From Rhizohabitans arisaemae (lineage in GTDB: Bacteria > Actinomycetota > Actinomycetes > Streptosporangiales > Streptosporangiaceae): 64,000 nt of DNA. Positions 4,466 through 62,911 of the stretch are shown here, in pieces. The DNA lies in the NCBI RefSeq assembly GCF_025996515.1, contig NZ_BLRH01000014.1:186001-250000 (forward strand), in the 5' to 3' direction. Each line of letters opens with the position of its first letter. Positions within the stretch are counted from its first letter, which is position 1. Below the pieces are notes generated by a model. That model ran no database searches. It saw nothing but the letters and a program-made list of their open reading frames with translations, and was not told the DNA's origin. The position numbers and the translations under genes are program-made.

Positions 4466-4673
4466 GGCGCCACGATGTCACGACGTATCTGGTGACATCG
4501 CTCAACCCCCGATGACACAGCACCACCACATCGGAACCACTCGTCTAGATTCTCCTCACATGTTGGAATCCGCCACGTGAGAATGGACCGTCCTGACGAT
4601 GCCGGAAATGTCCAAGTCTTCGAAAGTGAGGAAAAACACCTCCTGCTCGCGACAAACGCCCAGGTCATCCAGT

Positions 4674-5434
4674 CTGCTCCCCGCGCCCGCGGGGATGGTC
4701 CCCCATTCTTTTCCCCTCTCATCCGAACCTGCGTGCTGCTCCCCGCGCCCGCGGGGATGGTCCCTCATTCCCATTCTACTGGCGTTCGCTTTCGTTCTGC
4801 TCCCCGCGCCCGCGGGGATGGTCCCGGGCATGTGGAAGTTCTTCGATCGGGAACTTCCTGCTCCCCGCGCCCGCGGGGATGGTCCCCTGGAGATGCCCAT
4901 GACGCGGTCATGCCATCCCTGCTCCCCGCGCCCGCGGGGATGGTCCCCTGGAGATGCCCATGACGCGGTCATGCCATCCCTGCTCCCCGCGCCCGCGGGG
5001 ATGGTCCCCGGCCGGAGGCGTCCCGCCAGGCTCCGTCTATCTGCTCCCCGCGCCCGCGGGGATGGTCCCCCACATGGGGAACACGTTGGAGGTGTAGTCG
5101 CCTGCTCCCCGCGCCCGCGGGGATGGTCCCTTCTTGGAGTCGAGCCCCAGCTTCACGAGCATCTGCTCCCCGCGCCCGCGGGGATGGTCCCTTGGCGGGC
5201 TACGGCGGACCCAAACAGGACGTCTGCTCCCCGCGCCCGCGGGGATGGTCCAGCGAAGCGAACAGGTTCCCGTCGGTCCCCAACGCCTGCTCCCCGCGCC
5301 CGCGGGACGGTCCGAAGCCCGCAGTGACCTCCACGAGTACCTGCCGCAATGCTCCTGTGCACGTGGGGGTTGCCCCATCCGGCACACACTAAAGATCATC
5401 CTGTCCTGCTCCCCGCACGCGTGGCAGCACTCGT
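4674..5434 (+). CRISPR. CRISPR array 2 (type I-E-like, duplicated spacer)
   Basis: Ten near-identical 29-nt repeats start at 4674, 4736, 4797, 4858, 4919, 4980, 5041, 5102, 5163 and 5224. They begin CTGCTCCCCGCGCCC and end GCGGGGATGGTCCC, with an internal palindrome CCCCGC...GCGGGG. The spacing is 61 nt (32-nt spacers; the first is 33). A partly decayed copy lies at 5287 and strongly decayed ones near 5349 and 5406. Spacers 4887-4918 and 4948-4979 are identical. In the normal I-E orientation the leader is on the left (before 4674), again putting decay at the distal end. The repeat differs from array 1 in the loop and 3' end. No cas genes are nearby. Confidence 0.97.
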
Positions 5435-42748: not shown

Positions 42749-42859
42749 ACCGACATGGTCGGTTATGTTGAAATGTGGCACGCCCATAGGCCACGTACGC
42801 AACAAATGCCCCCAGCTTCGCGTGCCGTGATCCAAGAGCGTCCGGTGAGAGGTTGCGGA
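42749..42859 (+). promoter_or_regulatory. Leader region of the first conservon
   Basis: ACCGAC-ATG-GTCGGT (42749-42763) is an inverted repeat. GTCCGGTGAGAGGTTGCGGA ends at 42859, just before the cvnA start; the 17-nt core (CGGTGAGAGGTTGCGGA) recurs before the other two cvnA genes in this window. Confidence 0.5.
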
Positions 42860-42864
42860 CTCCT

Positions 42865-45606: not shown

Positions 45607-45615
45607 CGCCAAGGG

Positions 45616-46032
45616 GTGGCTGTGGTAGGACACACCTGGCCGGAGGGGAGCGGCGCGCCGCCGCCCGGTGAACCCCCCGGCAAAATGCGGACCGGTCGAG
45701 ATCGGGTGGTACGGCCCTACGCCGTCACCCGAGGCCGGACCAAAGGCCGACGCAGGCTCGAACTGGAGGCGCTCGTCTCCTCGGTGGCACCGGGCGGCAA
45801 GCAGCAGCGGGTTCTCACCCCCGAGTACCAGGCGATCGTCACGCTCTGCCGGAGCGTCCGGTCGGTGGCCGAGATCTCCGCCCTGATCAGGATGCCGCTC
45901 GGCGTGGTTCGGGTGCTCGTCGGAGACATGGCTGACGAAGGCCTGGTCAAGGTACACGAGCCGGCACTGGCCGAAGGCCCCTCCGAACTCAACCTCCTGG
46001 AAAGGGTCCTCAGCGGCCTCCGCCGCCTCTGA
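45616..46032 (+). CDS. cvnC: Conservon protein CvnC (DUF742), first locus
   Basis: A 138-aa DUF742 protein. VVRPYAVTRGRTKGRRRLEL, then LTPEYQAIVTLCRSVRSVAEI and PLGVVRVLVGDMADEGLV (winged-helix-like), ending LNLLERVLSGLRRL. GTG at 45616. It follows cvnA after 9 bp. Unlike the complete conservons downstream, no CvnB or CvnD accompanies it, so the locus is partial. Confidence 0.88.
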   Translation: MAVVGHTWPEGSGAPPPGEPPGKMRTGRDRVVRPYAVTRGRTKGRRRLELEALVSSVAPGGKQQRVLTPEYQAIVTLCRSVRSVAEISALIRMPLGVVRVLVGDMADEGLVKVHEPALAEGPSELNLLERVLSGLRRL

Positions 46033-48527: not shown

Positions 48528-48588
48528 CAATAACCCTCGCCCGCCCGTAGCGCCGGGTGTCGTAAGCGTTGCGGTGAGAGGTTGCGGA
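48528..48588 (+). promoter_or_regulatory. Shared leader element of the second conservon
   Basis: CAATAACCCTCGCCC at 48528-48542 and CGGTGAGAGGTTGCGGA ending at 48588 are both also present upstream of the third conservon (56618 and 56693). The first is 52 bp upstream of the GTG start here but 83 bp there. Confidence 0.55.
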
Positions 48589-48593
48589 GACCA

Positions 48594-51179
48594 GTGACCA
48601 CGGGATCGTTCCCCCATGACCGGGCTCCCGACGACGGGCGGCCCAGGCACGCGGCCCAGTCCACCGCCCGCAGCCCCTTCAAGATCGGCAATTGGCGGGT
48701 GCGGTCCCGGCTGATCGCGCTCATTCTCATCCCCACCGTGGTCGCCGTCTTCCTCGGCGGGGTCTCGGTGACGAACGCGATCAAGACCGGTGTCGAGTAC
48801 CAGCGGCTCACCGAGATCGCCGAACTCGTCGAGCGGATCAGTCGGCTCACCCACGAGCTGGAGCGGGAACGCGATCTGACCACACTCGCCCTCGCCGAGG
48901 CCGGAACCGCGAACCGCCCGACCCGGGTGGAGGGCCTGCACGCCACGGTCGACCGCCTGTCGGGGGAGGTCCGCGGCCGGCTGGACAAGATCGACCAGAA
49001 TCACGGCACCCGGGAACGTGCCAAGGCCGACCGGGTGGGCCGATGGCTCGACGGGCTCCCCGGGATGCGCGAACTCGCGGCGACCCAGGTGCCTCCCCGT
49101 GCCGCGTTCGACATGTACACCCGGATGATCGAGGACATGTCGGGGCTCCACGACGAGCTCGGCAGGGACGGCGACGACGCGGCGCTCTTTTCCGACGCGC
49201 TCGCGCTGAACGCGTTGACCCAGCTCAAGGAGGCCATCGCCCGGCAGCGAGGCATCCTCTCGGTCGCCCTCGCGGAAAAGAACCTCGGCTACGACGACAT
49301 CGCCGACTTCCTCGGCGCCTGGTCGCAGCAGGAGACGGAGCTGGCGCGCTTCCGGAGCGAAGCCGAACCCGCCGACCTCAGGTTCTTCGACGCCACCGTG
49401 AACGGTCCCCAGGTCAACCAGACCGACGCGATCCGCGCCCTCGTCCTCAACCGGGTGCGGGCGGGCACCCCGGTTCGCGACATCGACCCGCGTCGCACCG
49501 ACGACGTCAAGGTCTGGTTCGACGTCTCCACCGCCACGCTCGACCGGGTGCGCGCCGTCGAAGAACGCCTCACCACCTCGGTCGTCGCGGCCGTCCGGGA
49601 CCTGCAGTCGGGCGAGACCCGGGGGGCGCTGGTGATCGGCGGACTCACCGTCGCCCTCCTGCTCCTCGTGCTGGCGATCACCGTGGGGGTGGCCCGTTCC
49701 CTGGTACGGCCGCTGCGGCGGCTCCGTACCGAGGCGCTGGAGGTCGCCGGGAACCGGCTCCCGGACACCGTGCGCGCCATCCGGGACTCGGGGGACGCCG
49801 GGACCGATCCGCGGATCGAGCCGATCGGGCTCGACTCCGGAGACGAGATCGGCGAGGTGGCGCGGGCGTTCGACGAGGTGCACCGCGAGGCCGTACGTCT
49901 CGCGGCCGACGAGGCGCGGGTCCGGCGGAACGTCAACACGATGTTCGTCAACCTCTCCCGGCGCAGCCAGACGCTGGTCGAGCGGCAGCTCGCCCTCATC
50001 GACGGCCTGGAGCGCGGCGAGGAGGACGAGGATCGGCTGGAGGATCTGTTCCGGCTCGACCACCTCGCCACCCGGATGCGGCGCAACAGCGAGAACCTGC
50101 TGGTGCTGGCCGGGCAGGAGACCGCGCGGCGCTGGAGCAAACCCGTTCAGCTCGTCGACGTGGTCCGTGCCGCGCTGGCCGAGGTGGAGGGGTACGAGCG
50201 GGTGGAGCTGGAGATCGCCTTGGGTACCTCGGTCGCCGGCCAGGCGGTGAACGACACCGTCCACCTCGTCGCGGAGCTGGTGGAGAACGCCCTGTCCTTC
50301 TCATCCGGCGAGACCCACGTCACCGTGTCCAGCCGGGTGACCGACGCCGGTGAGGCCATGGTCGTGGTGGACGACGCCGGCATCGGGATGACCGAGGACG
50401 AACTCGCTCAGGCCAACTGGCGTCTCGCCCATCCCCCCACCGTGGACGTCTCGGTCTCCCGCCGGATGGGCCTGTTCGTGGTGGGCCGGCTCGCGGCCCG
50501 GCACGGCATCGGGGTTCACCTCCGTCCGCGTCCGCAGGGCGGGCTGACCGCGCTGGTACGGCTGCCGCATGCGATCGTCTCGCCCGACGGGCTCGGGGTG
50601 CGGCCCGTCGTCCCGGCCGACCGGGGGCTCCCGCACCCGGCACCGGAGCGTCCCGCGGTCGCCGCCGACCCGGTCACCCCGGTTCGCGAGGCCGCGACGC
50701 CCCCGCATCCGGGTTTCGCCGAGCTCGGCCCGCCGTTGGAGCGTTCCGGAAACGTGGCGGACATCGTGCTGCCGACGGGACGGCCTCCGGCGTGGAGTTC
50801 GGAGGAGTATCTCCCCATCTTCGCGGCGGTGGAGTCCGACTGGTTCCGCTCCGGGGGAGCGGGCGGGGCCGGGCGGCGGCCGGGCGCCGAACCCGCGGCG
50901 GCCGAGAACGCCCCGCCGGCCTGGCGGGCCTCCCGCTCCGACTCGGGCTGGTCGGCCGCCGAAGCGGTGCAGGAGCCCGCCAGCGGCGGTGTCACCTCGG
51001 CCGGCCTGCCCAAACGGGTCCCCAAGGCCAATCTCGTCCCGGGGAGCGCGGATCAGGGTGAGGCGGCGCCCGCTCCGCCGGTTCTGTCAGCTGATCGAGT
51101 ACGCAATAGGCTGTCGAGCTTTCAGCAGGGACTTCGGCAAGGACGCGCAGAGTCGCGTGCGTTGAAGGAGGATTCATGA
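48594..51179 (+). CDS. cvnA: Conservon sensor kinase CvnA (second locus)
   Basis: 861 aa, same architecture as the first: TM1 near 40-60 (LIALILIPTVVAVFLGGVSV), sensor region, TM2 (ALVIGGLTVALLLLVLAITV), HAMP-like SLVRPLRRLRTEALEVAGNRL, then LDHLATRMRRNSENLLVLAG, N-box ELVENALSFS, G-box DDAGIGMTEDEL. The tail has EEYLPIFAAVESDWF, TSAGLPKRVPKANLVPG and NRLSSFQQGLRQGRAE. GTG at 48594 chosen because the upstream frame contains the leader element. Its stop overlaps cvnB (ATGA). Confidence 0.9.
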   Translation: MTTGSFPHDRAPDDGRPRHAAQSTARSPFKIGNWRVRSRLIALILIPTVVAVFLGGVSVTNAIKTGVEYQRLTEIAELVERISRLTHELERERDLTTLALAEAGTANRPTRVEGLHATVDRLSGEVRGRLDKIDQNHGTRERAKADRVGRWLDGLPGMRELAATQVPPRAAFDMYTRMIEDMSGLHDELGRDGDDAALFSDALALNALTQLKEAIARQRGILSVALAEKNLGYDDIADFLGAWSQQETELARFRSEAEPADLRFFDATVNGPQVNQTDAIRALVLNRVRAGTPVRDIDPRRTDDVKVWFDVSTATLDRVRAVEERLTTSVVAAVRDLQSGETRGALVIGGLTVALLLLVLAITVGVARSLVRPLRRLRTEALEVAGNRLPDTVRAIRDSGDAGTDPRIEPIGLDSGDEIGEVARAFDEVHREAVRLAADEARVRRNVNTMFVNLSRRSQTLVERQLALIDGLERGEEDEDRLEDLFRLDHLATRMRRNSENLLVLAGQETARRWSKPVQLVDVVRAALAEVEGYERVELEIALGTSVAGQAVNDTVHLVAELVENALSFSSGETHVTVSSRVTDAGEAMVVVDDAGIGMTEDELAQANWRLAHPPTVDVSVSRRMGLFVVGRLAARHGIGVHLRPRPQGGLTALVRLPHAIVSPDGLGVRPVVPADRGLPHPAPERPAVAADPVTPVREAATPPHPGFAELGPPLERSGNVADIVLPTGRPPAWSSEEYLPIFAAVESDWFRSGGAGGAGRRPGAEPAAAENAPPAWRASRSDSGWSAAEAVQEPASGGVTSAGLPKRVPKANLVPGSADQGEAAPAPPVLSADRVRNRLSSFQQGLRQGRAESRALKEDS

Positions 51180-51601
51180 CAGAGCTCAGCAGGGCCGCCT
51201 CGAGCATGAACTGGTTGATCACCGATTTCGTCCACGGCGTTCCCGGTGTCGCGCACACCGTGGTCGTCTCCGCGGACGGCCTGCCCCTGGCGTACTCCGA
51301 CGGTTTCCCCAAGGACCGCGCCGATCAGCTGGCGGCGGTCGCCGCCGGCCTGATCAGCCTGACCTTGGGTGCGGCCCGGGTCTTCGAGGGCGGGCAGATG
51401 ATGCAGACGATCGTGGAGATGGAGCGGGGTGTCCTGTTGGCCATGTCCATCAGCGACGGGTCGTGCCTGGCGGTCCTCGCCTCGGCGGACTGCGATCTGG
51501 GGTTGGTGGCCTATCAGATGACGATGCTCGTGGAGCGGGCCGGAGAAGTGCTCACGCCGGCGGTGCGAAGCGAATTGCAGGCGGCCCATCCGCGGAGATG
51601 A
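51176..51601 (+). CDS. cvnB: Conservon Roadblock/LC7 protein CvnB (second locus)
   Basis: A 141-aa Roadblock/LC7 domain protein. MNWLITDFVHGVPGVAHTVV, SADGLPLAYSDGFPKDRADQ, LAAVAAGLISL and VLLAMSISDGSCLAVLAS fit the MglB-type fold that acts as a regulator of small GTPases. ATG at 51176 overlaps cvnA by 4 bp. Confidence 0.95.
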   Translation: MTELSRAASSMNWLITDFVHGVPGVAHTVVVSADGLPLAYSDGFPKDRADQLAAVAAGLISLTLGAARVFEGGQMMQTIVEMERGVLLAMSISDGSCLAVLASADCDLGLVAYQMTMLVERAGEVLTPAVRSELQAAHPRR

Positions 51602-51616
51602 CGACAGGAGAAGGTG

Positions 51617-52027
51617 ATGGCGGGAGCGGGGGAACACGGGTTCGGCGGCATGCCGGACCGGCCTGGTGGCGCGGGCTCGGATGCCGCCGACGAGATCCCC
51701 TTGGTCCGGCCGTACGCCTTGACTCGAGGGCGGACCAGAGCGCGGGTCAAGCTGGCGGTCGAGGCCTTGGTCTCCTCTGCGACGTTGGGGAATCGAGACC
51801 TGTCAACCCTTACTCCCGAGTTTCAGGCGATCGTATCTTTGTGTCGGCAAGTACGTTCGGTCGCGGAGATCTCCGCTCTGCTCAGGATTCCGCTCGGCGT
51901 CGTGCGCGTGGTCGTCGCCGACATGGCCGCCGAAGGCTTGGTACATGTGCATCAGCCACAACTTGATGAGGGTCAGCCAGATCTGAACCTGCTGGAAAGG
52001 GTGCTCAGTGGACTTCGCAGGCTCTGA
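51617..52027 (+). CDS. cvnC: Conservon protein CvnC (DUF742), second locus
   Basis: A 136-aa DUF742 protein: LVRPYALTRGRTRARVKLAV, LTPEFQAIVSLCRQVRSVAE, PLGVVRVVVADMAAEGLV, ending LERVLSGLRRL. ATG at 51617 (GTG at 51614 is possible) with AGGAG upstream. Its 3' end is nearly identical in DNA to the third-locus cvnC and overlaps cvnD by 20 bp. Confidence 0.94.
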   Translation: MAGAGEHGFGGMPDRPGGAGSDAADEIPLVRPYALTRGRTRARVKLAVEALVSSATLGNRDLSTLTPEFQAIVSLCRQVRSVAEISALLRIPLGVVRVVVADMAAEGLVHVHQPQLDEGQPDLNLLERVLSGLRRL

Positions 52028-52652
52028 TTCCTTCCGGAGCCGTTCTTTTGGGAACGCCCCGGACCGGTCGAACGGCGGGCCGACGGGCATGGGCTCCGCG
52101 TTGACTTCGACGAAGATAGTGGTCGCGGGTGGGTTCGGCGTGGGGAAGACGACGTTTGTCGGGGCGGTTTCGGAGATTCTGCCGTTGACGACCGAGGCGG
52201 TGATGACCGAGGCGTCGGCGGGGGTGGACGATCTGGCGTTGACGCCGTCGAAGACGACGACGACGGTGGCGATGGACTTCGGGCGGGTGTCCTTGGATCA
52301 GGATCTGATCCTGTACCTGTTCGGGACGCCGGGTCAGCATCGGTTCTGGTTCATGTGGGACGACTTGGTGCGGGGTGCGATCGGGGCCGTGGTGCTGGTG
52401 GACACGCGGCGGCTTGCGGACAGTTTCCCGGCGGTGGACTACTTCGAGGAGGCGCGGCTTCCGTTCGTGGTGGGTGTGAACGGGTTCGGCGGGTCGTTTC
52501 CGCACAGTGAGGCGGAGATTCGTGAGGCGTTGACGTTGTCGCACGGTGTTCCGGTGGTGCAGTGCGACGCGCGGTCGCGGGAGTCGGTGAAGACGACGTT
52601 GATCGCGTTGGTGGAGCACGCGCTCACCGTCCGCTCGTCCACGGCGTTCTAA
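52008..52652 (+). CDS. cvnD: Conservon GTPase CvnD (second locus)
   Basis: A 214-aa Ras-like GTPase (ATP/GTP-binding protein of conservons). P-loop AGGFGVGKTTFVG (Lys47), switch/G3 LFGTPGQHRFWFMW, and VVLVDTRRLADSFPAVD. The usual NKxD motif is replaced by VGVNGFGG. A 31-residue N-terminal extension differs from the third locus, but the next 538 bp (52102-52639) are identical to it in DNA. GTG at 52008; ATG at 52089 is an alternative. Confidence 0.94.
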   Translation: MDFAGSDSFRSRSFGNAPDRSNGGPTGMGSALTSTKIVVAGGFGVGKTTFVGAVSEILPLTTEAVMTEASAGVDDLALTPSKTTTTVAMDFGRVSLDQDLILYLFGTPGQHRFWFMWDDLVRGAIGAVVLVDTRRLADSFPAVDYFEEARLPFVVGVNGFGGSFPHSEAEIREALTLSHGVPVVQCDARSRESVKTTLIALVEHALTVRSSTAF

Positions 52653-52668
52653 GGGCGACCGGCCTGAT

Positions 52669-52717
52669 CGACGACAGGGGCGGTGACCTTTCAGAAAGGT
52701 CACCGCCCCTGTCGTCG
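52669..52717. terminator. Bidirectional terminator between cvnD and the ABC operon
   Basis: A 23-bp perfect stem: 52669-52691 (core GACAGGGGCGGTGACCTTT) pairs with 52695-52717, loop CAG. It sits between convergent genes, so it can serve both. The stem has TTT/AAA at its tip and no long T-run. Confidence 0.75.
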
Positions 52718-52729
52718 GCGGATCCGGCG

Positions 52730-53482
52730 TTACCCGGGCACGCCCCGGACGAGACGGCCCACGTCGGCGCGGAGCCGGACGAACTCGGGGAGCTGCCGGG
52801 TGGCGATCTGGTCCCGGGGGTAGGGCAGCCCGACCGACAGGTCCCCCACGATCCGGGACGGCGCCTTGCTGAGCACGACCACCCGGTCGCCCACGTAGAC
52901 GCTCTCGTCGATGTCGTGGGTGATCAGGACGATCGTCATGCCGTGCACCCCCCTGACCTGGAGGACGAGGTCCTCCAGGTCCTCGCGGGTCTGCGCGTCC
53001 ACCGACCCGAACGGCTCGTCCATGAGCATGAACGCGGGCCGGTAGGCGAGCGCGCGGGCGATCGCCACCCGCTGCTGCATCCCGCCGGAGAGCTGCCAGG
53101 GGTACTTCGCGGCGGCGCCTTCCAAGCCGACCTGCTCCAAGGCCTCCAGCGCGGAGGTACGGCGCCGGGCGCCGCTCATGCCTTTGCGCCGGAGGGGCAG
53201 GGCGACGTTGTCGGCGACCGACATCCAGGGGAAGAGCGACCGGCTGTAGTCCTGGAAGACCACGGCGAGGTTGTCCGGCGTCCCGGCGACGGGGACGCCG
53301 TTGATCAGGATCTCCCCCTGGGTGGGCTTGAGCAGCCCGGCGATGGAACGCAGCAAGGTGGACTTGCCGCAGCCGGACGGGCCGACGATGCACAGGAGCT
53401 GACCCTCGTCGACCTTGAGGTCGATGCCGCCGAGGACCTCGTGCGAGCCGTACGAATGGCGCAGGTGGTTTATCTCCAGCAT
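52730..53482 (-). CDS. ABC transporter ATP-binding protein (SsuB/TauB-like)
   Basis: 250 aa. Walker A IVGPSGCGKSTLL, signature YPWQLSGGMQQRVAIARAL, Walker B AFMLMDEPFGSVD, H-loop ITHDIDES. It is closest to ATPases of nitrate/sulfonate/taurine (NitT/TauT) importers. ATG at 53482; the frame overlaps the permease by 1 nt. It powers the two permeases encoded upstream in the same operon. Confidence 0.92.
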   Translation of the reverse strand: MLEINHLRHSYGSHEVLGGIDLKVDEGQLLCIVGPSGCGKSTLLRSIAGLLKPTQGEILINGVPVAGTPDNLAVVFQDYSRSLFPWMSVADNVALPLRRKGMSGARRRTSALEALEQVGLEGAAAKYPWQLSGGMQQRVAIARALAYRPAFMLMDEPFGSVDAQTREDLEDLVLQVRGVHGMTIVLITHDIDESVYVGDRVVVLSKAPSRIVGDLSVGLPYPRDQIATRQLPEFVRLRADVGRLVRGVPG

Positions 53483-54306
53483 TAGTCCGTCCTTCTCGCA
53501 CCCCGGTGCCAGGCCAGGATGCGGCGCTCCACGAGGAGGAACGTCGTGTTGAGCAGGAACCCCATGAGGCCGAGGAGCACGATCGCCGCCCAGGTCGTCG
53601 GGATGTCGAAGAGGCCCTGCGCCTGCAGCATGCGATGGCCGATCCCGTCGGTGCTGCCGACCAGTTCCGAGATGATCATAAGGATCAGGGAGAGCGAGAC
53701 GCTGATCCGCAGACCCGCGAAGATCTTCGGGGCCGCAGCGGGCAGGATCACCCGCCGCAGCCGATCAAGGCGGGACAGCGAGAACACCTGGGCCGTGTCC
53801 AGATACTGCCGGTCGACGTACCGGGCTCCCTCGATCGCATTGATCATGATCGGCCAAACCACGCCGAAGACGATCGTGGCGACCTGCATGCTCCCGCCGA
53901 ACTGGAAGAGGACGAGGAAGACCGGGACGAGGGTGGGCGGGGGGATCGACCGGCCGAAGTGCACCAGCGGGTCGACGTAGGCGGAAAGACGGGTGGACCG
54001 GCCCAGCGCCACCCCTACCCCGACACCGACGGCGCAGCCGAGCACCCAGCCGATGGCGAGCCGGGTGAAGCTCGGCAGGAAGTTGCCGATCGCGTCGTCG
54101 GTGAGGAAGAAGGTCCGCCACGATCCGGAGAACCAGAGCTCGTGCAGGCGCACCAGGACGGTGGACGGGGGCGGAAAGTAGACGGCCTGGATCCAGCGGG
54201 TGACGACTTCCCAGAGCACCAGGGCCACCGGCATGATCCACAGGGACAGGATCCGGCCGGCCACCCGCCGGGCCACCCCGGGCCTCTGGGCGGAGACGGC
54301 GGTCAC
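53482..54306 (-). CDS. ABC transporter permease (NitT/TauT type), first
   Basis: A 274-aa permease with about six transmembrane helices and the cytoplasmic EAA-like loop in NAIEGARYVDRQYLDTAQVF. GTG at 54306 (RC of CAC at 54304) gives the right length; the longer frame is not real. Its stop overlaps the ATPase start. It pairs with the next permease, and both differ in sequence, so they may form a heterodimer. Confidence 0.9.
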   Translation of the reverse strand: MTAVSAQRPGVARRVAGRILSLWIMPVALVLWEVVTRWIQAVYFPPPSTVLVRLHELWFSGSWRTFFLTDDAIGNFLPSFTRLAIGWVLGCAVGVGVGVALGRSTRLSAYVDPLVHFGRSIPPPTLVPVFLVLFQFGGSMQVATIVFGVVWPIMINAIEGARYVDRQYLDTAQVFSLSRLDRLRRVILPAAAPKIFAGLRISVSLSLILMIISELVGSTDGIGHRMLQAQGLFDIPTTWAAIVLLGLMGFLLNTTFLLVERRILAWHRGARRTD

Positions 54307-55076
54307 GACGTCCCCCCCACCCGCTCCTGGTGCCAGCGGAAGAGCCGGCGTTCGGCACCGGTGAGCAGGAAGTTCGCCACCAGGCCGATCGCACCGGCCC
54401 AGATCGTCCCCGCGAGCACGAAGTCCATGTTCCCGGCCCCGGTGCTCATGTGGGTGAGGAAGGCGCCGATGCCCTCGCCGCCCGCGACGAGTTCGACGCT
54501 CACCGCGACGATCAGTGTCACCGAGGCGGCCAGCCGGATCCCCGTCGCGATGAAGGGCGCGGTGCTCGGCATCGTCACCCGCCACAGTACGGCGAGGGAA
54601 CCGAACCCGAAGCTGCGCAGCGTCTCCTTGGCCAGGGGATCGACGTCGCGCACGCCGTACATCGTGTTGATCAGCAGCGGCCAGGTGCAGGCGTAGACGA
54701 TGAGTGCGATCTTGGCGTTGTGCGTGGGGATGAAGACGAACAGTGCCAGCGGGATCAGGGCCAGGGACGGGATCGGCCGGAGGAACTCCAGCAGGGGACG
54801 GGTCGCCCGTTCGACCTTGGGGAGTGTGCCCAGGGCGACGCCGGCCGGCACCGCGAGGACGATGGCGATGAGGAGTCCGGCGAAGCACGCCAGCAGGGTG
54901 GCGCCGACTTCGCTCAGGAAGTCCCCGTCGGCGGCAAGGCCGATCGTACGGCCGAGAACCGTCGAGGTCAGGGGCAGGATAGTGGGATCGATCAGGCCGA
55001 GGCGCCCCGCGGCCTCGGCGACGAGGAGGAACCCCGCGACGCCAATGGCGCCGCGGAGTACCTTCCGAACGGTCAT
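54303..55076 (-). CDS. ABC transporter permease (NitT/TauT type), second
   Basis: A 257-aa permease. GVAGFLLVAEAAGRLGLIDP begins the first transmembrane helix; SFGFGSLAVLWRVTMPSTAP is the EAA-like loop contacting the ATPase. ATG at 55076. It overlaps the neighbouring permease by 4 bp and the solute-binding gene by 4 bp, so one transcript is clear. Confidence 0.9.
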   Translation of the reverse strand: MTVRKVLRGAIGVAGFLLVAEAAGRLGLIDPTILPLTSTVLGRTIGLAADGDFLSEVGATLLACFAGLLIAIVLAVPAGVALGTLPKVERATRPLLEFLRPIPSLALIPLALFVFIPTHNAKIALIVYACTWPLLINTMYGVRDVDPLAKETLRSFGFGSLAVLWRVTMPSTAPFIATGIRLAASVTLIVAVSVELVAGGEGIGAFLTHMSTGAGNMDFVLAGTIWAGAIGLVANFLLTGAERRLFRWHQERVGGTS

Positions 55077-56059
55077 CCTGTGCTGCTCGCCAGCAGCTTG
55101 GTGACGTCGACGTTCCGCTTGAGGTACTGGAAGCGGAACATCAGGTCGGCGACCCGCTGCACCCGCTGCGGGCTGAGGGAGGTGCTGTAGACCCCCATCC
55201 CCATGGCGGCGGCGGCCTCAGCGGAGATCTTCGTGTAGGTCGGGATGATCCGGTTGATCGCGTTGCGGTCCTCTGCCGCGATCTTCTGGCCCTTGGCCAG
55301 CGCCCGCGTGAAGGCCGCGGCGGTCTTGGGGTGCTTGGTGACCCATTCCTCGGTCGCCGCCCATCCGTCCAGGGGCAGGTCCGCGGTCGGGCCGGCGATG
55401 GTGTCGATGATCGTCCTGACCCCGAGCTTGGTTTGGGCGCCGGAGAGGAAGGGCTCCACCAGCCAGGCCGCGTCGACCTTGCCGGTCTCCAGCGATGCGA
55501 TCTGCTGATCGAACGGCACCGCGACGAAATCCACATCCAGCGGTGTGAGGCCGTGCACCTGCAGCTGGGCCGACATGGTGAGCTCGCCGAGGGCCTTGAG
55601 GGCGTTGACCGCGATGGTCTTGCCCTTGAGGTCCTTGGGCTCCTTGATCGCGGAGTCCTTCAGCACCACGATGTTGTGGATTCCGCTCTTGCCCGCCTGG
55701 GCGTCGGCGAGGAGCCGCAGTTTGGCCTGCTCCGAGTCGTTGATGGAGAGGAAGGAGACATAGCTCGACATGAAGGTGTCGATGCTCCCGTTGAGGATCT
55801 GCGGCATCACCGCTTGGGGGGCCTGGATGGGCAGCGTCTTGATCTTGATGCCTTCTTGGTCGAAGAACCCCTTTTCCATGGCGATGTACAAGGGTGCGGC
55901 GGAGGGAACCGGGACTACACCGATGGTGAGTTCTGTCTTCTCCAACCCGCCGGCGTTTGCAGGCTTGCCCGAATCTGTACCGGAACTGCCGCAGGCGCTG
56001 AGGGTCAATGCGGCAACAAGCCCAATGAGGGAACCGCGGAACGCGAGCCCAAACCTCAT
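55073..56059 (-). CDS. ABC solute-binding lipoprotein (NMT1/SsuA-like)
   Basis: A 328-aa periplasmic-type binding protein with a lipobox LTLSAC (Cys23). TIGVVPVPSAAPLYIAMEKGF is the characteristic NMT1/SsuA start, followed by a bilobed fold. Family members bind sulfonates, nitrate, or thiamine precursors (HMP, FAMP); the ligand here is unknown. First gene of the operon on the minus strand; ATG at 56059. Confidence 0.92.
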   Translation of the reverse strand: MRFGLAFRGSLIGLVAALTLSACGSSGTDSGKPANAGGLEKTELTIGVVPVPSAAPLYIAMEKGFFDQEGIKIKTLPIQAPQAVMPQILNGSIDTFMSSYVSFLSINDSEQAKLRLLADAQAGKSGIHNIVVLKDSAIKEPKDLKGKTIAVNALKALGELTMSAQLQVHGLTPLDVDFVAVPFDQQIASLETGKVDAAWLVEPFLSGAQTKLGVRTIIDTIAGPTADLPLDGWAATEEWVTKHPKTAAAFTRALAKGQKIAAEDRNAINRIIPTYTKISAEAAAAMGMGVYSTSLSPQRVQRVADLMFRFQYLKRNVDVTKLLASSTG

Positions 56060-56617
56060 GGAGTCTCCTTAGCTGGGAAAACGCGCGAATGCGCACCCCT
56101 CAAACAGACCCGGGCGGGCGGGACCCAGTCGGACCCGTCACCGGTAACCTCGAGTTGCGCGAGGGGGCGAGGCGACGGCGGACCAGCGTAGCGGAGGGTA
56201 GATCAGGGCGGCTATGCCGAGTGTCAAATAAATCCGACTATCCCGTAAAAATCTGGATATCTCGGTATGCGCGAGGAAGTCGAATTCTTACATGGTTTGA
56301 TCACCGGCTGTCACGGCTTCTTGTGCATGCCAGGGGCAGGGATATGCCCGTTCTGGCAATGTTTGGGTGGTTTGTCCAGATTTCTGGATGTGGGGCGACA
56401 AGGGGTGACCGTTAATACGGCATCCGAGTCCACCCTTACGGCCTTCAGGCTCTATGCTGCGAGGATCGCATGCGGCCAGACCATCCGATTCCGGTTCATA
56501 ATGCCAAAAGCGTCCTGATGGTTGTCCGTTCGTTATGAAGTAGTGCAAGTGATTGTGGTGGCAATTAGGGATGTTTGGGTCCTGTGGGCTATTGGCCTAT
56601 CTCATCCGGCTATGCTC
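56060..56617. other. Gene-free interval upstream of the ABC operon and third conservon
   Basis: No gene is seen. The sequence is less GC-rich than its surroundings in places. TGGTTTGTCCAGATTTCT near 56368 resembles TGGTCTGTCCAGAATTA at 36752; the meaning is unknown. Confidence 0.4.
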
Positions 56618-56709
56618 CAATAACCCTCGCCCAATGGATTGCGATGGCGGGCCACGCCACACCAAGACGTGATCGCCCTGCACAAGACCGTCCGGTGAGA
56701 GGTTGCGGA
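56618..56709 (+). promoter_or_regulatory. Shared leader element of the third conservon
   Basis: CAATAACCCTCGCCC (56618-56632) and GTCCGGTGAGAGGTTGCGGA (56690-56709) repeat elements upstream of the second (both) and first (the latter) cvnA genes. They lie 83 and 6 bp before the GTG start. Confidence 0.55.
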
Positions 56710-56714
56710 GACCA

Positions 56715-59700
56715 GTGGGGACAGGACCAATCCAGCAGAGCGGTCGTAAGTCAGGCACCGCTGCGGCGACGCCTTCAGGTGGGACCAAGAAGACGAAGAA
56801 CCCGAGGCGTGGCGGAGAGCCGGCCAAGGGAGGGCGGCTGGCCCTGCAGAACTGGCGCGTGCGCTCGCGCCTGGTGGCGCTCATCCTGATCCCGACCATC
56901 GCGGGTGTCTTCCTGGGTGGGCTCCGGGTCGTCGCCTCCATCAACGTGGCCGCGGACTACCGGCTGGTCCGGCAGAACGCCGAGTTCGTCGGAATCCTGG
57001 GTGAGCTGACCCAGGCCCTCGCCATGGAGCGGGACATCTCCGTCCTCTTCGTGGCCCAGGGCCGCCAGGGTGACACGCTGAACGAGGTCAAGGAGCAGCA
57101 GCGCCGCGTCGACAAGGTCGCGACGGAGGTGCGGGCCGTCGCCGCCGAGATCGTGAACGTCCCCGGGCAGGTCGACCGGCAGGAGATCCAGCAGGTCATC
57201 AACCGGATCGGCTCGCTCACCACCCTCCGGCGCGCGGTTCTTGAGACGCGGTTGCTGGTCGGGGACGCCGCCCAGGCGTACTCCCGGACGATCGACGACT
57301 TCCACTCGCTCAACGACAACATCAGCGGCGCGGTGGACGAGGAACTCATCGCCAGCGTGAGCGCGCTCGCCTTCCTCGCCCGGGCGAAGGAGCAGGCCTC
57401 GCGGGAGCGGGCGCTCCTCGCCGCCGCCCTGCACGCCGGGGCGTTCGACCGAACCGGCTACGCCCAGTTCCAGGCCGCGCGGGCGCAGGTCGCCACCGAG
57501 CTCGCCTCCTTCCGGGTCGAGGCGTCCATCGAGCAGCGTCAGTTCTTCGACGACACCCTCGCGGGTGACGACACCGACCGCGCCGCGTTCATGTCCTCCC
57601 GGGCGATCATCCTGGCGGAGCAGGGGCTGAACCTCCGGGGTGTCGTCCCCGCCGGCACGATCGCCTCCAACGACTGGTTCCGGGCGAGCACCGAGTCGAT
57701 CAACCGGATGCGCAACGTCGAGAAGGTGATCGCCGACGAGATCATCTCGCGCAGCCGCACCCTGCAGGAGGACGAGCAGGCCAACGCGCTCGTCGTCGTG
57801 GGACTGGTCGTGGTCCTGCTCGTCGCGGTGCTCGCCGTCACCACGCTCGTCGCCCGGTCGCTGGTACGGCCGCTGCGGCGGCTCCGTACCGAGGCTCTGG
57901 AGATCGCCTCCAACCGGTTGCCCTCGGTGGTCAGCACCCTGCGTGAGTCGGGCGACACCGGGGTGGCGACCGAGATCCGCCCGATCGGTGTGGAGTCGTC
58001 CGACGAGATCGGTGAAGTCGCCCGGGCCTTCGACGAGGTCCACCGCGAGGCGATCCGGCTCGCCGGGGACGAGGCCAAGCTGCGGAGCAACATCAACGCG
58101 ATGTTCGTCAACCTCTCGCGGCGCACCCAGACGCTGGTGGAGCGGCAGATCTCCCTGATCGACGGCCTCGAACAGGGCGAGCAGGACGGCGCCCGGCTGG
58201 CCAACCTGTTCTCGCTCGACCACCTCGCCACCCGTATGCGGCGAAACAGTGAGAACCTGCTCGTTCTCGCGGGTCAGGAGCCCGCACGGCGGTGGAGCCA
58301 GCCGGTTCCCGTCGTGGACGTCGTCCGCGCCGCCCTCTCCGAGGTGGAGAACTACGACCGGGTCAACCTCCAGGTCCAGTCCGGCATCGCGGTCGCCGGT
58401 CAGGCGGTCAACGACGTCGTCCACCTCATCGCCGAGCTGGTGGAGAACGCGATCTCGTTCTCCCCCCGCGACACCCGCGTCGTGGTCTCCAGCAACAGGA
58501 TCGACGGTGGCGGGCTGATGCTCGGCATCAGCGACGCCGGTATCGGAATGACCGCCGAGGAACTCGCGCACACCAACGAGCGGCTGGCCACCCCACCCGT
58601 GGTGGACGTCTCGGTATCCCGCCGGATGGGCCTGTTCGTGGTCGGCCGGCTGGCCGCCAGGCACGGCATCCGGGTGCAGCTCCGCCACCAGGACGTCGGC
58701 GGTCTCACCGCCATGGTGCTCCTGCCGGAGGGCCTCGTCGCGCACGCGGGTTCCCCCGCTCCCGGCGGATTCGGGGCCGGCCCGTCCGCGCCGCTGGTGG
58801 GAGCAGGTGCCGGATCGGCCTCCTCGTACGGCGGGCAGCCGCTCGGCAGCCCCACCCTGTTCGCCGGCAACACGTCCCCGCCGGCGCAGCCGACGCCCGC
58901 CTGGCCGACTCCGCCGGCCCCGCAGCCCGCCCAGAGCGGCTGGTCCGCGGGAAGCCCGAGCGGCGGGTCGGGCTGGTCGTCGCCGCCTTCGGCCACCGAT
59001 CGCCCTTCGGGGGGGCATTCGTTCTTCGACCAGCCTTCGGGTGCCCATTCCTTCACGGACCGCCCTTCAGGTGCCCATTCGTTCACAGATCGCCCTTCGG
59101 GCAGCCACTCGTTCACGGATCGTCCGTCAAGCGGCAGTCTGTTCGCCGACCGCTCCTCCGGGGACAGCCTGTTCTCCGACCGTCCTTCAGGCGCCCACTC
59201 GTTCGGCGGTCCCTCCGGTCAGCAGGACGTCATCAACACCGGCCCGCTCCCCGTCGTCCGCTCCTCTCCGATGGATCAGGCCGAGGAGTTTCTTCCGATC
59301 TTCGCCGCGGTCGAGTCGGACTGGTTCCGGCGGGCCGACCGGCGTGACGGAACCAAGCCCGCCGAGCAGGAGCCGCGGAAGGAGCCGGTCCGGCCGGTGG
59401 TCGAGGACGCTGCGAGCGTCGGCCGGGACACCGGTGGCTGGCGTTCGTCGCCGACCGACGTGGGCTGGCAGGCGGCTCAGGCGGCTCAGGAGCCGACCCT
59501 TGGCGGTACCACGTCCGCGGGGCTGCCCAAGCGGGTGCCGCGGGCGAACCTGGTCCCCGGCACGGCCGACCTGTCCGGTGGTTCCCCGGTCCCCCTGCCC
59601 CAGCCCGTCCTGTCGCCGGAGCGGGTTCGTAATCGTCTGTCGAGCTTCCAGCAGGGAGTCCGGCAGGGTCGTGCGGCGGTCCGTGGCGGGCCGCACGAGG

Positions 59701-59729
59701 AAGACGCCCCTCACGGGGATCAGAGTTAG
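56715..59729 (+). CDS. cvnA: Conservon sensor kinase CvnA (third locus)
   Basis: 1004 aa, the longest of the three. TM1 near 50-75 (LVALILIPTIAGVFLGGLRV), sensor region, TM2 (ALVVVGLVVVLLVAVLAVTT), HAMP-like SLVRPLRRLRTEALEIASNRL, then LDHLATRMRRNSENLLVLAG, N-box ELVENAISFS, G-box SDAGIGMTAEEL. Seven tandem 10-residue repeats (DRPSGAHSFT-like, 58998-59207) precede EEFLPIFAAVESDWF and LPKRVPRANLVPG. GTG at 56715 (TTG at 56703 would place the leader element in the gene). Confidence 0.9.
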   Translation: MGTGPIQQSGRKSGTAAATPSGGTKKTKNPRRGGEPAKGGRLALQNWRVRSRLVALILIPTIAGVFLGGLRVVASINVAADYRLVRQNAEFVGILGELTQALAMERDISVLFVAQGRQGDTLNEVKEQQRRVDKVATEVRAVAAEIVNVPGQVDRQEIQQVINRIGSLTTLRRAVLETRLLVGDAAQAYSRTIDDFHSLNDNISGAVDEELIASVSALAFLARAKEQASRERALLAAALHAGAFDRTGYAQFQAARAQVATELASFRVEASIEQRQFFDDTLAGDDTDRAAFMSSRAIILAEQGLNLRGVVPAGTIASNDWFRASTESINRMRNVEKVIADEIISRSRTLQEDEQANALVVVGLVVVLLVAVLAVTTLVARSLVRPLRRLRTEALEIASNRLPSVVSTLRESGDTGVATEIRPIGVESSDEIGEVARAFDEVHREAIRLAGDEAKLRSNINAMFVNLSRRTQTLVERQISLIDGLEQGEQDGARLANLFSLDHLATRMRRNSENLLVLAGQEPARRWSQPVPVVDVVRAALSEVENYDRVNLQVQSGIAVAGQAVNDVVHLIAELVENAISFSPRDTRVVVSSNRIDGGGLMLGISDAGIGMTAEELAHTNERLATPPVVDVSVSRRMGLFVVGRLAARHGIRVQLRHQDVGGLTAMVLLPEGLVAHAGSPAPGGFGAGPSAPLVGAGAGSASSYGGQPLGSPTLFAGNTSPPAQPTPAWPTPPAPQPAQSGWSAGSPSGGSGWSSPPSATDRPSGGHSFFDQPSGAHSFTDRPSGAHSFTDRPSGSHSFTDRPSSGSLFADRSSGDSLFSDRPSGAHSFGGPSGQQDVINTGPLPVVRSSPMDQAEEFLPIFAAVESDWFRRADRRDGTKPAEQEPRKEPVRPVVEDAASVGRDTGGWRSSPTDVGWQAAQAAQEPTLGGTTSAGLPKRVPRANLVPGTADLSGGSPVPLPQPVLSPERVRNRLSSFQQGVRQGRAAVRGGPHEEDAPHGDQS

Positions 59730-59739
59730 GGAGGCTTGA

Positions 59740-60162
59740 GTGCGGGAGTTGAGCCAGGGCGCTCGCGGCGTGAACTGGTTAATCACCGATTTTGTCACCA
59801 ATGTGCCAGGAGTGGCGCACACGGTGGTTGTCTCCTCGGATGGGCTTCCTCTTGCTTTCTCTGAGGGTTTTCCGAAGGATCGAGCTGACCAACTGGCGGC
59901 GGTCGCCGCCGGGTTGATCAGTTTGACGCAGGGAGCTTCGCGAGTCTTCGAAGGCGGTGCGGTGACGCAGACCGTGGTGGAGATGGAACGAGGCCTTCTG
60001 CTGATCATGTCGGTGAGTGACGGGTCCTGTCTTGCGGTGCTCGCGTCGGCGGATTGTGATATGGGCCTGGTGGCCTATCAGATGACGCTGCTGGTGGAGC
60101 GTGCGGGACAGGTCTTGACGCCTGCGGTGCGGGCTGAATTACAGGCATCGCATCCCCGGTGA
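59740..60162 (+). CDS. cvnB: Conservon Roadblock/LC7 protein CvnB (third locus)
   Basis: 140 aa. NWLITDFVTNVPGVAHTVVV, SSDGLPLAFSEGFPKDRADQ and LIMSVSDGSCLAVLAS match the second-locus CvnB closely. GTG at 59740, after GGGAGGCTTGA. It regulates CvnD as a Roadblock-type GAP or scaffold by analogy to MglB. Confidence 0.95.
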   Translation: MRELSQGARGVNWLITDFVTNVPGVAHTVVVSSDGLPLAFSEGFPKDRADQLAAVAAGLISLTQGASRVFEGGAVTQTVVEMERGLLLIMSVSDGSCLAVLASADCDMGLVAYQMTLLVERAGQVLTPAVRAELQASHPR

Positions 60163-60176
60163 TGAAGGAGGACACC

Positions 60177-60635
60177 GTGGCAGGCCGCGGCTGGAGTGAG
60201 GGAGACCCGCTGGGCGGGTCTTCCTATACCCCTAATCCGGTGGGGTTCGGGGACGACCCTCGACAATTTGGTGCTGGGCACGGCCCGGAGTCACCGGAAC
60301 CCAGCTCCTTGGTCCGGCCCTACGCCGTGACCGGAGGGCGTACCCAACCCCGGCGCGAGTTGGCGATGGAGGCGCTCGTCTCCTCGGCGACCGTGGTGAA
60401 CCGGGACTTCTCTACCCTCATCCCCGAGTATCAGGCGATCAGTACGCTGTGTCGGCAGGTCCGATCGGTTGCCGAGATCTCCGCTCTGCTCCGTATGCCG
60501 CTGGGCGTCACCCGCGTGCTCGTCGGCGACATGGCTGACGAAGGCCTGGTGCAGTTGCATCAGCCGCAACTTGATGAGGGTCAGCCAGATATGAACCTGC
60601 TGGAAAGGGTGCTCAGTGGACTACGCAGGCTCTAA
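60177..60635 (+). CDS. cvnC: Conservon protein CvnC (DUF742), third locus
   Basis: 152 aa. SLVRPYAVTGGRTQPRRELA, LIPEYQAISTLCRQVRSVAE, PLGVTRVLVGDMADEGLV, ending LERVLSGLRRL. GTG at 60177 follows AAGGAGG with 5-nt spacing; ATG at 60162 is an alternative. It overlaps cvnD by 20 bp, exactly as in the second locus. Confidence 0.94.
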   Translation: MAGRGWSEGDPLGGSSYTPNPVGFGDDPRQFGAGHGPESPEPSSLVRPYAVTGGRTQPRRELAMEALVSSATVVNRDFSTLIPEYQAISTLCRQVRSVAEISALLRMPLGVTRVLVGDMADEGLVQLHQPQLDEGQPDMNLLERVLSGLRRL

Positions 60636-61215
60636 CTCGCCCGGGCGATACACCCCGGGTAACCCGCTGACTTCGACGAAGATAGTGGTCGCGGGTGGGT
60701 TCGGCGTGGGGAAGACGACGTTTGTCGGGGCGGTTTCGGAGATTCTGCCGTTGACGACCGAGGCGGTGATGACCGAGGCGTCGGCGGGGGTGGACGATCT
60801 GGCGTTGACGCCGTCGAAGACGACGACGACGGTGGCGATGGACTTCGGGCGGGTGTCCTTGGATCAGGATCTGATCCTGTACCTGTTCGGGACGCCGGGT
60901 CAGCATCGGTTCTGGTTCATGTGGGACGACTTGGTGCGGGGTGCGATCGGGGCCGTGGTGCTGGTGGACACGCGGCGGCTTGCGGACAGTTTCCCGGCGG
61001 TGGACTACTTCGAGGAGGCGCGGCTTCCGTTCGTGGTGGGTGTGAACGGGTTCGGCGGGTCGTTTCCGCACAGTGAGGCGGAGATTCGTGAGGCGTTGAC
61101 GTTGTCGCACGGTGTTCCGGTGGTGCAGTGCGACGCGCGGTCGCGGGAGTCGGTGAAGACGACGTTGATCGCGTTGGTGGAGCACGCGCTCACCGTCCGC
61201 TCGTCGTCGCGGTAG
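60616..61215 (+). CDS. cvnD: Conservon GTPase CvnD (third locus)
   Basis: A 199-aa GTPase. P-loop AGGFGVGKTTFVG (Lys33), G3 LFGTPGQHRFWFMW, NKxD replaced by VGVNGFGG. DNA 60668-61205 is identical to 52102-52639 of the second locus; the N-terminal 17 residues and the last 2-3 residues differ. GTG at 60616. It ends 142 bp before ffh. Confidence 0.95.
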   Translation: MDYAGSNSPGRYTPGNPLTSTKIVVAGGFGVGKTTFVGAVSEILPLTTEAVMTEASAGVDDLALTPSKTTTTVAMDFGRVSLDQDLILYLFGTPGQHRFWFMWDDLVRGAIGAVVLVDTRRLADSFPAVDYFEEARLPFVVGVNGFGGSFPHSEAEIREALTLSHGVPVVQCDARSRESVKTTLIALVEHALTVRSSSR

Positions 61216-61357: not shown

Positions 61358-62911
61358 GTGTTCGAGACACTTTCCGACCGTCTGACATCGGTCTTCTCCT
61401 CACTCCGCAGCAAGGGTCGGCTCTCCGAGGCCGACATCGACGCGACCTGCCGCGAGATCCGAATCGCCTTGCTCGAGGCCGACGTCGCGCTGCCTGTGGT
61501 GAAGGAATTCGTCGCCCAGGTCAAGGAGCGGGCGCGCGGCGCCGAGGTCTCCCAGGCGCTCAACCCCGCGCAGCAGGTCGTGCAGATCGTGAACGACGAG
61601 CTGATCGCCATCTTGGGTGGCGAGACGCGCAGGCTGCGATACGCGAAGACCCCCCCTTCGGTTTTCATGCTGGCGGGCCTGCAGGGCTCGGGGAAGACCA
61701 CCCTGGCGGGAAAGCTCGCCCGCTGGCTCCGCGAGCAGGGCCACACGCCGCTGCTCGTCGCCTGTGACCTCCAGCGTCCCAACGCGGTCCAGCAGCTGTC
61801 CGTGCTGGCCGAGCGCGCCGGCGTCGGGATCTACGCCCCCGAGCCCGGCAACGGCACCGGAGACCCCGTCGCGGTCGCCAGGCAGTCGATCGACCACGCC
61901 CGGCGGCAGCAGCACGACATCGTGATCATTGACACCGCCGGCCGTCTCGGCATCGACGTCGAGATGATGCGCCAGGCGGCGGACATCCGGGACGCCGTCG
62001 ACCCCGACGAGATCCTCTTCGTGGTCGACGCCATGATCGGCCAGGACGCCGTCACCACGGCGCAGGCGTTCCTGGACGGCGTCGGGTTCGACGGGGTGGT
62101 CCTGACCAAGCTCGACGGCGACGCCCGCGGCGGCGCCGCGCTCTCGGTCCGGCACATCACCGGGCGTCCCATCGTCTTCGCCTCCACGGGCGAGAAGCTC
62201 GACGACTTCGACGCCTTCCACCCGGACCGGATGGCCTCGCGCATCCTCGACATGGGTGACGTCCTCACCCTGATCGAGCAGGCGCAGCGGACCTTCGACG
62301 AGCAGGAAGCCGCCAAGATGGCGGGCAAGCTCGCGTCCGGGGAGGGCTTCACCCTCGACGACTTCCTCGAGCAGATGATGATGGTCCGGAAGATGGGGCC
62401 GATCAGCAACCTGCTCGGGATGCTCCCCGGCATGGGGCAGATGCGTGATCAGCTGAACCAGGTCGACGACCGCGACCTCGACCGGGTGGCCGCGATCATC
62501 CGCTCCATGACCCCCGGCGAACGGCAGAACCCGAAGATCATCAACGGGTCGCGCCGCGCCCGTATCGCCAACGGTTCCGGCGTGAGCGTGACCGAGGTGA
62601 ACAGCCTCGTCACCCGCTTCTTCGACGCGCAGAAGATGATGAAGCAGATGGCCGGCGGAATGGGCATCCCCGGCATGCCGGGCTTCCGCCGCAAGCAGCA
62701 GAAGACGGCGAAGAAGGCCAAGGGCAAGCGGGTCAGCGGGGACCCCCGCAAGGCCGCGGCGGGACGCCCCGCCCTGGACCCGGCGCCCGCGCCCCAGGCT
62801 CCTTCCCCGGGTATGGGGGGATTGGGGGCGATTCCCGGGCAGCTTCCCCCCGGGCTCAAGCTCCCGCCGGGATTCGACCCCGCCAAGCTCAATCTGCCGA
62901 AGAAGAAGTAG
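61358..62911 (+). CDS. ffh: Signal recognition particle GTPase Ffh
   Basis: 517 aa. N domain, then G domain with GLQGSGKTTLAGKLA (G1), DLQRPNAVQQL (G2), IIDTAGRLGID (G3), TKLDGDARGG (G4). The M domain (about 300-430) is Met-rich and carries QKMMKQMAGGMG, then a basic/Pro-rich tail ending in LPKKK. GTG at 61358. It partners with FtsY. Terminal genes rpsP-khpA-rimM follow. Confidence 0.97.
   Translation: MFETLSDRLTSVFSSLRSKGRLSEADIDATCREIRIALLEADVALPVVKEFVAQVKERARGAEVSQALNPAQQVVQIVNDELIAILGGETRRLRYAKTPPSVFMLAGLQGSGKTTLAGKLARWLREQGHTPLLVACDLQRPNAVQQLSVLAERAGVGIYAPEPGNGTGDPVAVARQSIDHARRQQHDIVIIDTAGRLGIDVEMMRQAADIRDAVDPDEILFVVDAMIGQDAVTTAQAFLDGVGFDGVVLTKLDGDARGGAALSVRHITGRPIVFASTGEKLDDFDAFHPDRMASRILDMGDVLTLIEQAQRTFDEQEAAKMAGKLASGEGFTLDDFLEQMMMVRKMGPISNLLGMLPGMGQMRDQLNQVDDRDLDRVAAIIRSMTPGERQNPKIINGSRRARIANGSGVSVTEVNSLVTRFFDAQKMMKQMAGGMGIPGMPGFRRKQQKTAKKAKGKRVSGDPRKAAAGRPALDPAPAPQAPSPGMGGLGAIPGQLPPGLKLPPGFDPAKLNLPKKK

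Follow-up and report, generated by a model that had tools for sequence, protein, structure and literature searches.

Identical GTPase domains in two cvnD genes of Rhizohabitans arisaemae suggest recurrent gene conversion in conservon arrays

Two cvnD genes that lie 8.6 kb apart in a conservon array of Rhizohabitans arisaemae share a GTPase domain that is identical in every base. Recurrent ectopic gene conversion between array copies, mainly in cvnD, very probably explains this identity. The DNA analysed, referred to as the window, is a stretch of 64,000 nt (GCF_025996515.1, contig NZ_BLRH01000014.1, 186,001-250,000), and coordinates below are those of the window unless another locus is named. 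The initial annotation had claimed 538 gap-free identical bases in the two genes, and direct comparison of 52102-52639 with 60668-61205 gave exactly this number (538/538). The match cannot be extended by a single base in either direction (extension 0 and 0). Outside the tract, at the same fixed offset and without gaps, 50-base blocks agree at 5-22 of 50 positions. The tract spans the GTPase domain of both genes, from LTSTKIVVAGG to ALTVRSS, leaving outside it the variable 5' tail of cvnD, located behind the overlapping cvnC end, and a few C-terminal residues. Between the cvnC end and the tract, the 5' tails differ in both sequence and length. A search of the organism's own genome found two copies of the tract at 100% and no others; a third cvnD, on contig C59, has 67% DNA identity to the tract over query bases 12-521. 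The tract copies and their genes are as follows.

52102..52639, + strand: probable converted tract copy 1, GTPase domain of cvnD1 (538/538 against copy 2)
60668..61205, + strand: probable converted tract copy 2, GTPase domain of cvnD2 (538/538 against copy 1)
52008..52652, + strand: cvnD1, 214 aa, start codon overlapping the cvnC1 end, with tails of its own beyond the tract at the 5' and 3' ends (open reading frame (ORF), Pfam PF03029)
60616..61215, + strand: cvnD2, 199 aa, with short tails of its own beyond the tract (ORF, Pfam PF03029)

The identity extends to silent sites. The tract contains 178 full codons with 110 fourfold degenerate sites, and all 110 are identical; at the 52% fourfold identity observed between genomes, the chance of this is ~6e-32, a rough figure as the sites are not independent. 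The initial annotation had offered conversion or selection for a common GTPase as explanations. Purifying selection for one common GTPase protein, with no exchange of DNA, would fit the statement in PMC8510531 that CvnD is the best-conserved conservon protein in Streptomyces coelicolor. However, selection on the protein alone cannot explain the tract because the fourfold sites are identical too. It is refuted as the sole cause and its probability is negligible; the conversion half of the proposal is supported, since identity within genomes exceeds that between genomes, and selection may act alongside it.

The genes flanking the two cvnD are old, diverged paralogues. Both operons (48582-52652 and 56703-61215) have the gene order and domains of a conservon, cvnA-B-C-D, encoding by Pfam a HATPase sensor, a roadblock protein, a DUF742 protein and a P-loop protein. 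CvnD matches Pfam PF03029 'ATP_bind_1', and its description as a Ras-like GTPase is the reading of the conservon literature. GTPase activity was shown for CvnD9, as cited in PMC8510531, and is predicted by homology for the CvnD proteins studied here. The remaining genes of the two operons are as follows.

48582..51179, + strand: cvnA1, NIT-HAMP-HATPase sensor kinase, start codon uncertain (ORF, Pfam)
51176..51601, + strand: cvnB1, roadblock/LC7 (ORF, Pfam)
51614..52027, + strand: cvnC1, DUF742 (ORF, Pfam)
56703..59729, + strand: cvnA2, NIT-HAMP-HATPase sensor kinase, start codon uncertain (ORF, Pfam)
59740..60162, + strand: cvnB2, roadblock/LC7, 81% amino acid identity to cvnB1 (ORF, Pfam)
60159..60635, + strand: cvnC2, DUF742 (ORF, Pfam)

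Amino acid identity between operons 1 and 2 is 28.2% for the NIT domain and 71.6% for HAMP-HATPase, in agreement with the earlier claim that the linked cvnA genes are clearly diverged, and is 81% for CvnB and 71.5% for CvnC. Forced sisterhood of cvnA1 and cvnA2 was rejected by a tree test (approximately unbiased (AU) p 0.011). An alternative history, in which the operon was recently duplicated (or arose by unequal crossing-over) and every gene but cvnD then diverged fast, is disfavoured here because the flanks are diverged, and the fourfold identity of the window's cvnB pair (44%) is slightly below its expectation. True cassette duplication does occur in a relative, G059, in which a B-C-D block is duplicated with DNA identities of 96.0% for cvnB and 98.9% for cvnC. 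The cvnB tree is also compatible with sisterhood of the window copies (AU p 0.64) and was set aside as proof of old operon divergence, not being decisive. Taken with the cvnA tree, we judge operon duplication highly improbable for the window. At the G059 locus (L095 5583-12003), identity between the cvnD copies is lower, at 89.4%, as though one of them had been overwritten from elsewhere.

We then compared identity within and between genomes in a family sample of 100 genomes, including the window's own (G000), the sole genome of its genus there. A match to the tract was present in 100/100 genomes, and the nearest named matches were from Acrocarpospora, Herbidospora, Sphaerisporangium, Nonomuraea and similar genera; the four named genera we take to be Streptosporangiaceae. 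Copies counted from the match list for the tract are at least the figures given, and more may exist. Array stretches of up to 20 kb, not always covering the whole array, were obtained from 29 of the 99 other genomes, chosen by high similarity to the query (30 with G000), and five more genomes were added for cvnD only, giving 35 in all. The divergent cvnD on contig C59 was excluded from the fourfold, matched-identity and run statistics. In the 30-genome test, high-scoring segment pairs (HSPs) of up to 1400 (cvnA), 350 (cvnB), 270 (cvnC) and 480 (cvnD) nt were dropped, including a 37%-identical cvnD remnant in G012, and three cvnC HSPs running through a stop were trimmed. In the 35-genome set, G080 lost two short fragments of one copy and so counts as having a single copy; run counts cover the 34 genomes with at least two copies.

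The window's two cvnD are closest to each other. The initial annotation had proposed as a test that identity within the genome should exceed that between genomes, and this pair conforms, with 100% over 538 nt compared to 82-83% for the nearest other genome (83% over the tract, among the matches listed; 81.8% over the whole gene, among the 30 genomes with fetched stretches). The excess also holds across the relatives. Over 104 cvnD copies from 35 genomes, fourfold identity was 62.0% within a genome compared to 52.1% between genomes (z 16.1, 0/2000 shuffles); the 30-genome set (85 copies) gave 62.3% and 52.1% (z 14.2, 0/2000 shuffles). In the larger set the signal persisted without G000 (z 15.5) and without both G000 and G051 (z 14.7). 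Identical runs of at least 60 nt were found in 35/114 within-genome pairs compared to 70/5106 between-genus pairs, and runs of at least 100 nt in 16/114 compared to 6/5106. Those of at least 60 nt occurred in 23/34 genomes and 17/23 genera, the longest examples including 501 nt in G051, which belongs to another genus and has one copy at a contig end, and 321 nt in the single-contig genome G031. On the cvnD tree, the window's two copies are sisters with a Shimodaira-Hasegawa-like approximate likelihood ratio test (SH-aLRT) value of 100, and genome-specific groups were recovered for G051 (99), G031 (98), G069 (99) and G005 (95), for G063 at only 82, and for G059 (99), where the whole B-C-D block is duplicated. 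These features of concerted evolution are found in this pair: paralogues within the genome are more like each other than like their counterparts in other genomes, the identity reaches silent sites, and the flanks are old and diverged by the NIT, CvnB, CvnC and cvnA evidence, with the cvnB tree neutral.

An assembly artefact, in which one consensus was written into two places while the true copies differ, was also considered. The genome is in 63 contigs, and contigs of other drafts end at or inside cvnD (G051 C73, G068 C54, G080 C15 and G096 C25), suggesting that assemblers may struggle with this gene. Both copies of the tract are nevertheless within one contig and have different flanks, and the ~20% divergence usual for these paralogues would hardly be merged unnoticed. 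Collapse is unlikely as a general cause because the long runs of G051 and of single-contig G031 exist. The five genomes of 1-3 contigs alone gave z 5.6 for cvnD, with runs of at least 60 nt in 7/16 within-genome pairs compared to 1/89 between genomes. Collectively, these results make collapse very unlikely.

The excess is largest in cvnD. At matched protein identity, the mean fourfold excess over 71 operon pairs was 9.6 points for cvnD and 2.3 for cvnB, cvnD being above cvnB in 54/71 pairs (Wilcoxon p 1.5e-6) and, by genome, in 23/30 (p 0.0015). The genome-level figure is the safer one because pairs within one genome are not independent. This comparison used the 81 of 85 cvnD copies that have a linked cvnB. 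The excess was positive in 22/30 genomes for cvnD and in 17/30 for cvnB. Within-genome runs of at least 60 nt were found in 6/42 pairs for cvnA, 4/71 for cvnB and 1/76 for cvnC, and cvnC showed no within-genome fourfold excess in the 30 genomes (z 0.1, 877/2000 shuffles). The fewest genome-label changes on the tree were 67 for cvnD (85 rows), 60 for cvnA (65 rows), 71 for cvnB (80 rows) and 71 for cvnC (80 rows). By eye, and uncounted, the cvnA tree groups mostly by operon across genera.

Several observations weigh against recurrent conversion centred on cvnD. A nominal fourfold excess within the 30 genomes is seen in cvnA (z 2.2, 37/2000 shuffles reaching the observed value) and cvnB (z 2.3, 28/2000) too, indicating that the process is not limited to cvnD. 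In eight of the 30 genomes the cvnD excess at matched protein identity is not above zero, and 11 of the 34 with at least two cvnD have no within-genome run of 60 nt or more. The 30 genomes of the fourfold test were themselves chosen from the 100 for high similarity to the query. Only the cvnA tree separates the two operons, sisterhood of cvnB1 and cvnB2 remaining compatible with the data. Finally, a few true differences between the tract copies could have been merged by the assembler.

Recurrent conversion leaves room for the homogenisation to be purely passive, cvnD simply offering longer similar DNA and hence recombining most often, with no benefit from a common GTPase. We lean slightly towards this explanation, which is compatible with recurrent conversion itself. 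The longer similar stretches in cvnD favour it: the median longest identical run between genomes is 29 nt in cvnD compared to 20 nt in each of cvnB and cvnC. The third-position excess also peaks, at 11-14 points, at MDFGRVSL...FGTPGQHR in the conserved middle of the gene, with 5-10 points over the rest of the first two thirds and 3-4 points across the final quarter. On the other hand, cvnD remains above cvnB at matched protein identity, and cvnA, which is longer and has a similar baseline (median run 28 nt), has runs of at least 60 nt less often than cvnD (6/42 vs 35/114).

The proposed sequence of events is as follows. The two cvnD sit in two old, diverged conservon operons of a tandem array beside ffh, and the GTPase domain of one would recently have been copied over the other by ectopic homologous recombination, that is, gene conversion, with RecA-type strand exchange as the presumed agent. 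The tract covers the whole alignable part of the gene, ending where the tails lose similarity. Arrays across many related genera show the same pattern repeatedly, chiefly in cvnD and to a smaller degree in cvnA, cvnB or cvnC. The sensors would thus continue to diverge as conversion returns the GTPase to a common sequence, and the identical GTPases would presumably be functionally interchangeable between operons. Sensor and switch would then not evolve together, because the GTPase is overwritten while the sensors diverge. The cvnD tree gives the shared tract no single position and points to no donor copy. In third-position composition, the neighbouring cvnB2 resembles the tract and cvnC2 does not. 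Codons ending in T make up 21% of cvnB2 (59740-60162) and those ending in A 10%, in a window of 70% G+C; the figures for cvnB1 are 7% and 4%.

Two ideas on base composition were rejected. Conversion biased towards G+C is not indicated, the tract having 65% G+C compared to 70% for the window. G-rich third positions in cvnD are not linked to homogenisation, as no correlation was found over 103 copies (Spearman 0.07, p 0.49). The four cvnD copies most skewed to third-position G are those of G000 and two of G051 (L091), with 55-63% G compared to 43% over the cvnD set.

The ends of cvnC were examined as possible further conversion patches.

51953..52027, + strand: cvnC1 3' end, possible second converted patch (71/75 against 60561-60635)
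60561..60635, + strand: cvnC2 3' end, possible second converted patch (71/75 against 51953-52027)

The earlier description of these ends as nearly identical was accurate: the final 75 nt agree at 71/75 positions, compared to 257/338 (76.0%) over the aligned remainder. The best match in another genome was 88.9% among the 59 cvnC ends compared, 59 of the 80 cvnC rows being usable at this end. One or more further within-genome pairs are equally alike, and the between-genome 99th percentile is 97.2%, owing to close relatives. These data are suggestive of conversion at the cvnC ends in the window's genome. As a habit of the relatives it was rejected, since the final 20 alignment columns show no excess.

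The array contains a third, reduced locus and lies beside ffh.

42853..45606, + strand: cvnA3, third sensor kinase of the array, start codon uncertain (Pfam, similarity)
45616..46032, + strand: cvnC3, directly behind cvnA3 (Pfam, similarity)
61358..62911, + strand: ffh (SRP54), beside the array, which it adjoins in 27/30 genomes with fetched stretches

No cvnB or cvnD was found at the cvnA3-cvnC3 locus (42853-46032). The same genome has a second A-C pair, with A directly followed by C, on contig C54 (L150 3819-6471); neither a B nor a D match was found in the 12 kb around it. Searches of the organism's own genome gave five CvnA, five CvnC, three CvnB and three CvnD. The CvnA count was made with a 267-aa query piece, leaving out two weak matches; genome completeness is estimated at 98%, and highly divergent copies may have escaped these counts. 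A tandem conservon array beside ffh is common to the relatives, and glnD is on the other side of the array in 8/30 genomes, most stretches ending before that point. The fetched stretches carry up to four cvnD copies of the tract class.

Array structure varies among the relatives. A-C pairs, or cvnC on its own, with no matching cvnB or cvnD alongside, are also present in the arrays of G094, G044, G058 and G015 (L117, L119, L116 and L122), and two cvnD are directly in tandem within one array in G098 and G067 (L102 5113-6423 and L103 12257-13570). In G051 (L091 3482-9124), a cvnA stands in the opposite orientation to cvnB-cvnD, and a cvnD copy lies at the contig end; no cvnC match was found at this locus.

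A more tentative proposal is that the array in this family is a many-sensor, one-GTPase system, in which selection would retain conversion to keep a common CvnD pool for the sensors of different operons, A-C pairs without their own B and D included. The five CvnA and five CvnC of this genome would then have only two different CvnD GTPase domains between them. We regard this as possible but doubtful. The cvnD excess at matched protein identity and the A-C loci without their own GTPase favour sharing, although neither proves it.

The process itself is known from the tuf genes, and the conservon gene family is new to it. PMC5485169 and PMC6053082 describe concerted evolution of tufA/tufB (EF-Tu) by gene conversion. 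Like tuf, cvnD are duplicate GTPase genes that are alike within a genome, including silent sites, and diverge between genomes, recurrently. Unlike tuf as described there, they are 8.6 kb apart in a tandem operon array and act in signalling rather than translation; their homogenisation is only episodic and mainly affects one of the four genes in the operon. PMC6053082 is a survey naming 26 concertedly evolving prokaryotic genes, and none of the terms conservon, cvn, MglA and GTPase appears in its main text.

The window's operons match conservons as presented in PMC8510531 and PMC13343842, in gene order and in having a NIT sensor kinase, roadblock protein, DUF742 protein and small GTPase. S. coelicolor has 13 conservons throughout its genome according to PMC8510531, unlike the two full operons and an A-C pair in one array found here, with two cvnD of identical GTPase domain. 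Cross talk between conservons is only hypothesised in that paper. In PMC4316618, neighbouring duplicated conservons are reported, one having lost its mglA-type (cvnD) gene. The window resembles this case in having adjacent conservon copies of uneven gene content and differs in that the reduced loci keep A and C without either B or D. The term 'gene conversion' has 0 occurrences in the main text of PMC4316618, and we found no report of gene conversion in conservons in the open-licence literature, absence there not being proof.

At stake is whether conservons are insulated from one another or share components. Recurrent overwriting of the GTPase alongside diverging sensors implies that the GTPase domain carries no operon identity, which makes CvnD sharing directly testable. 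It is also a warning that cvnD trees may not reflect how the conservon operons descended, and that contigs of some draft genomes are broken at this gene.

Two other features of the window were noted. Between the two conservons, on the minus strand at 52730-56059, is an ABC transporter module comprising an NMT1-like binding protein, two permease ORFs and an ATPase. A CRISPR-like array with a 61-nt period is located at ~4670-5340; its repeat resembles that of type I-E, and its units at 4857-4917 and 4918-4978 are identical, indicating a duplicated spacer.

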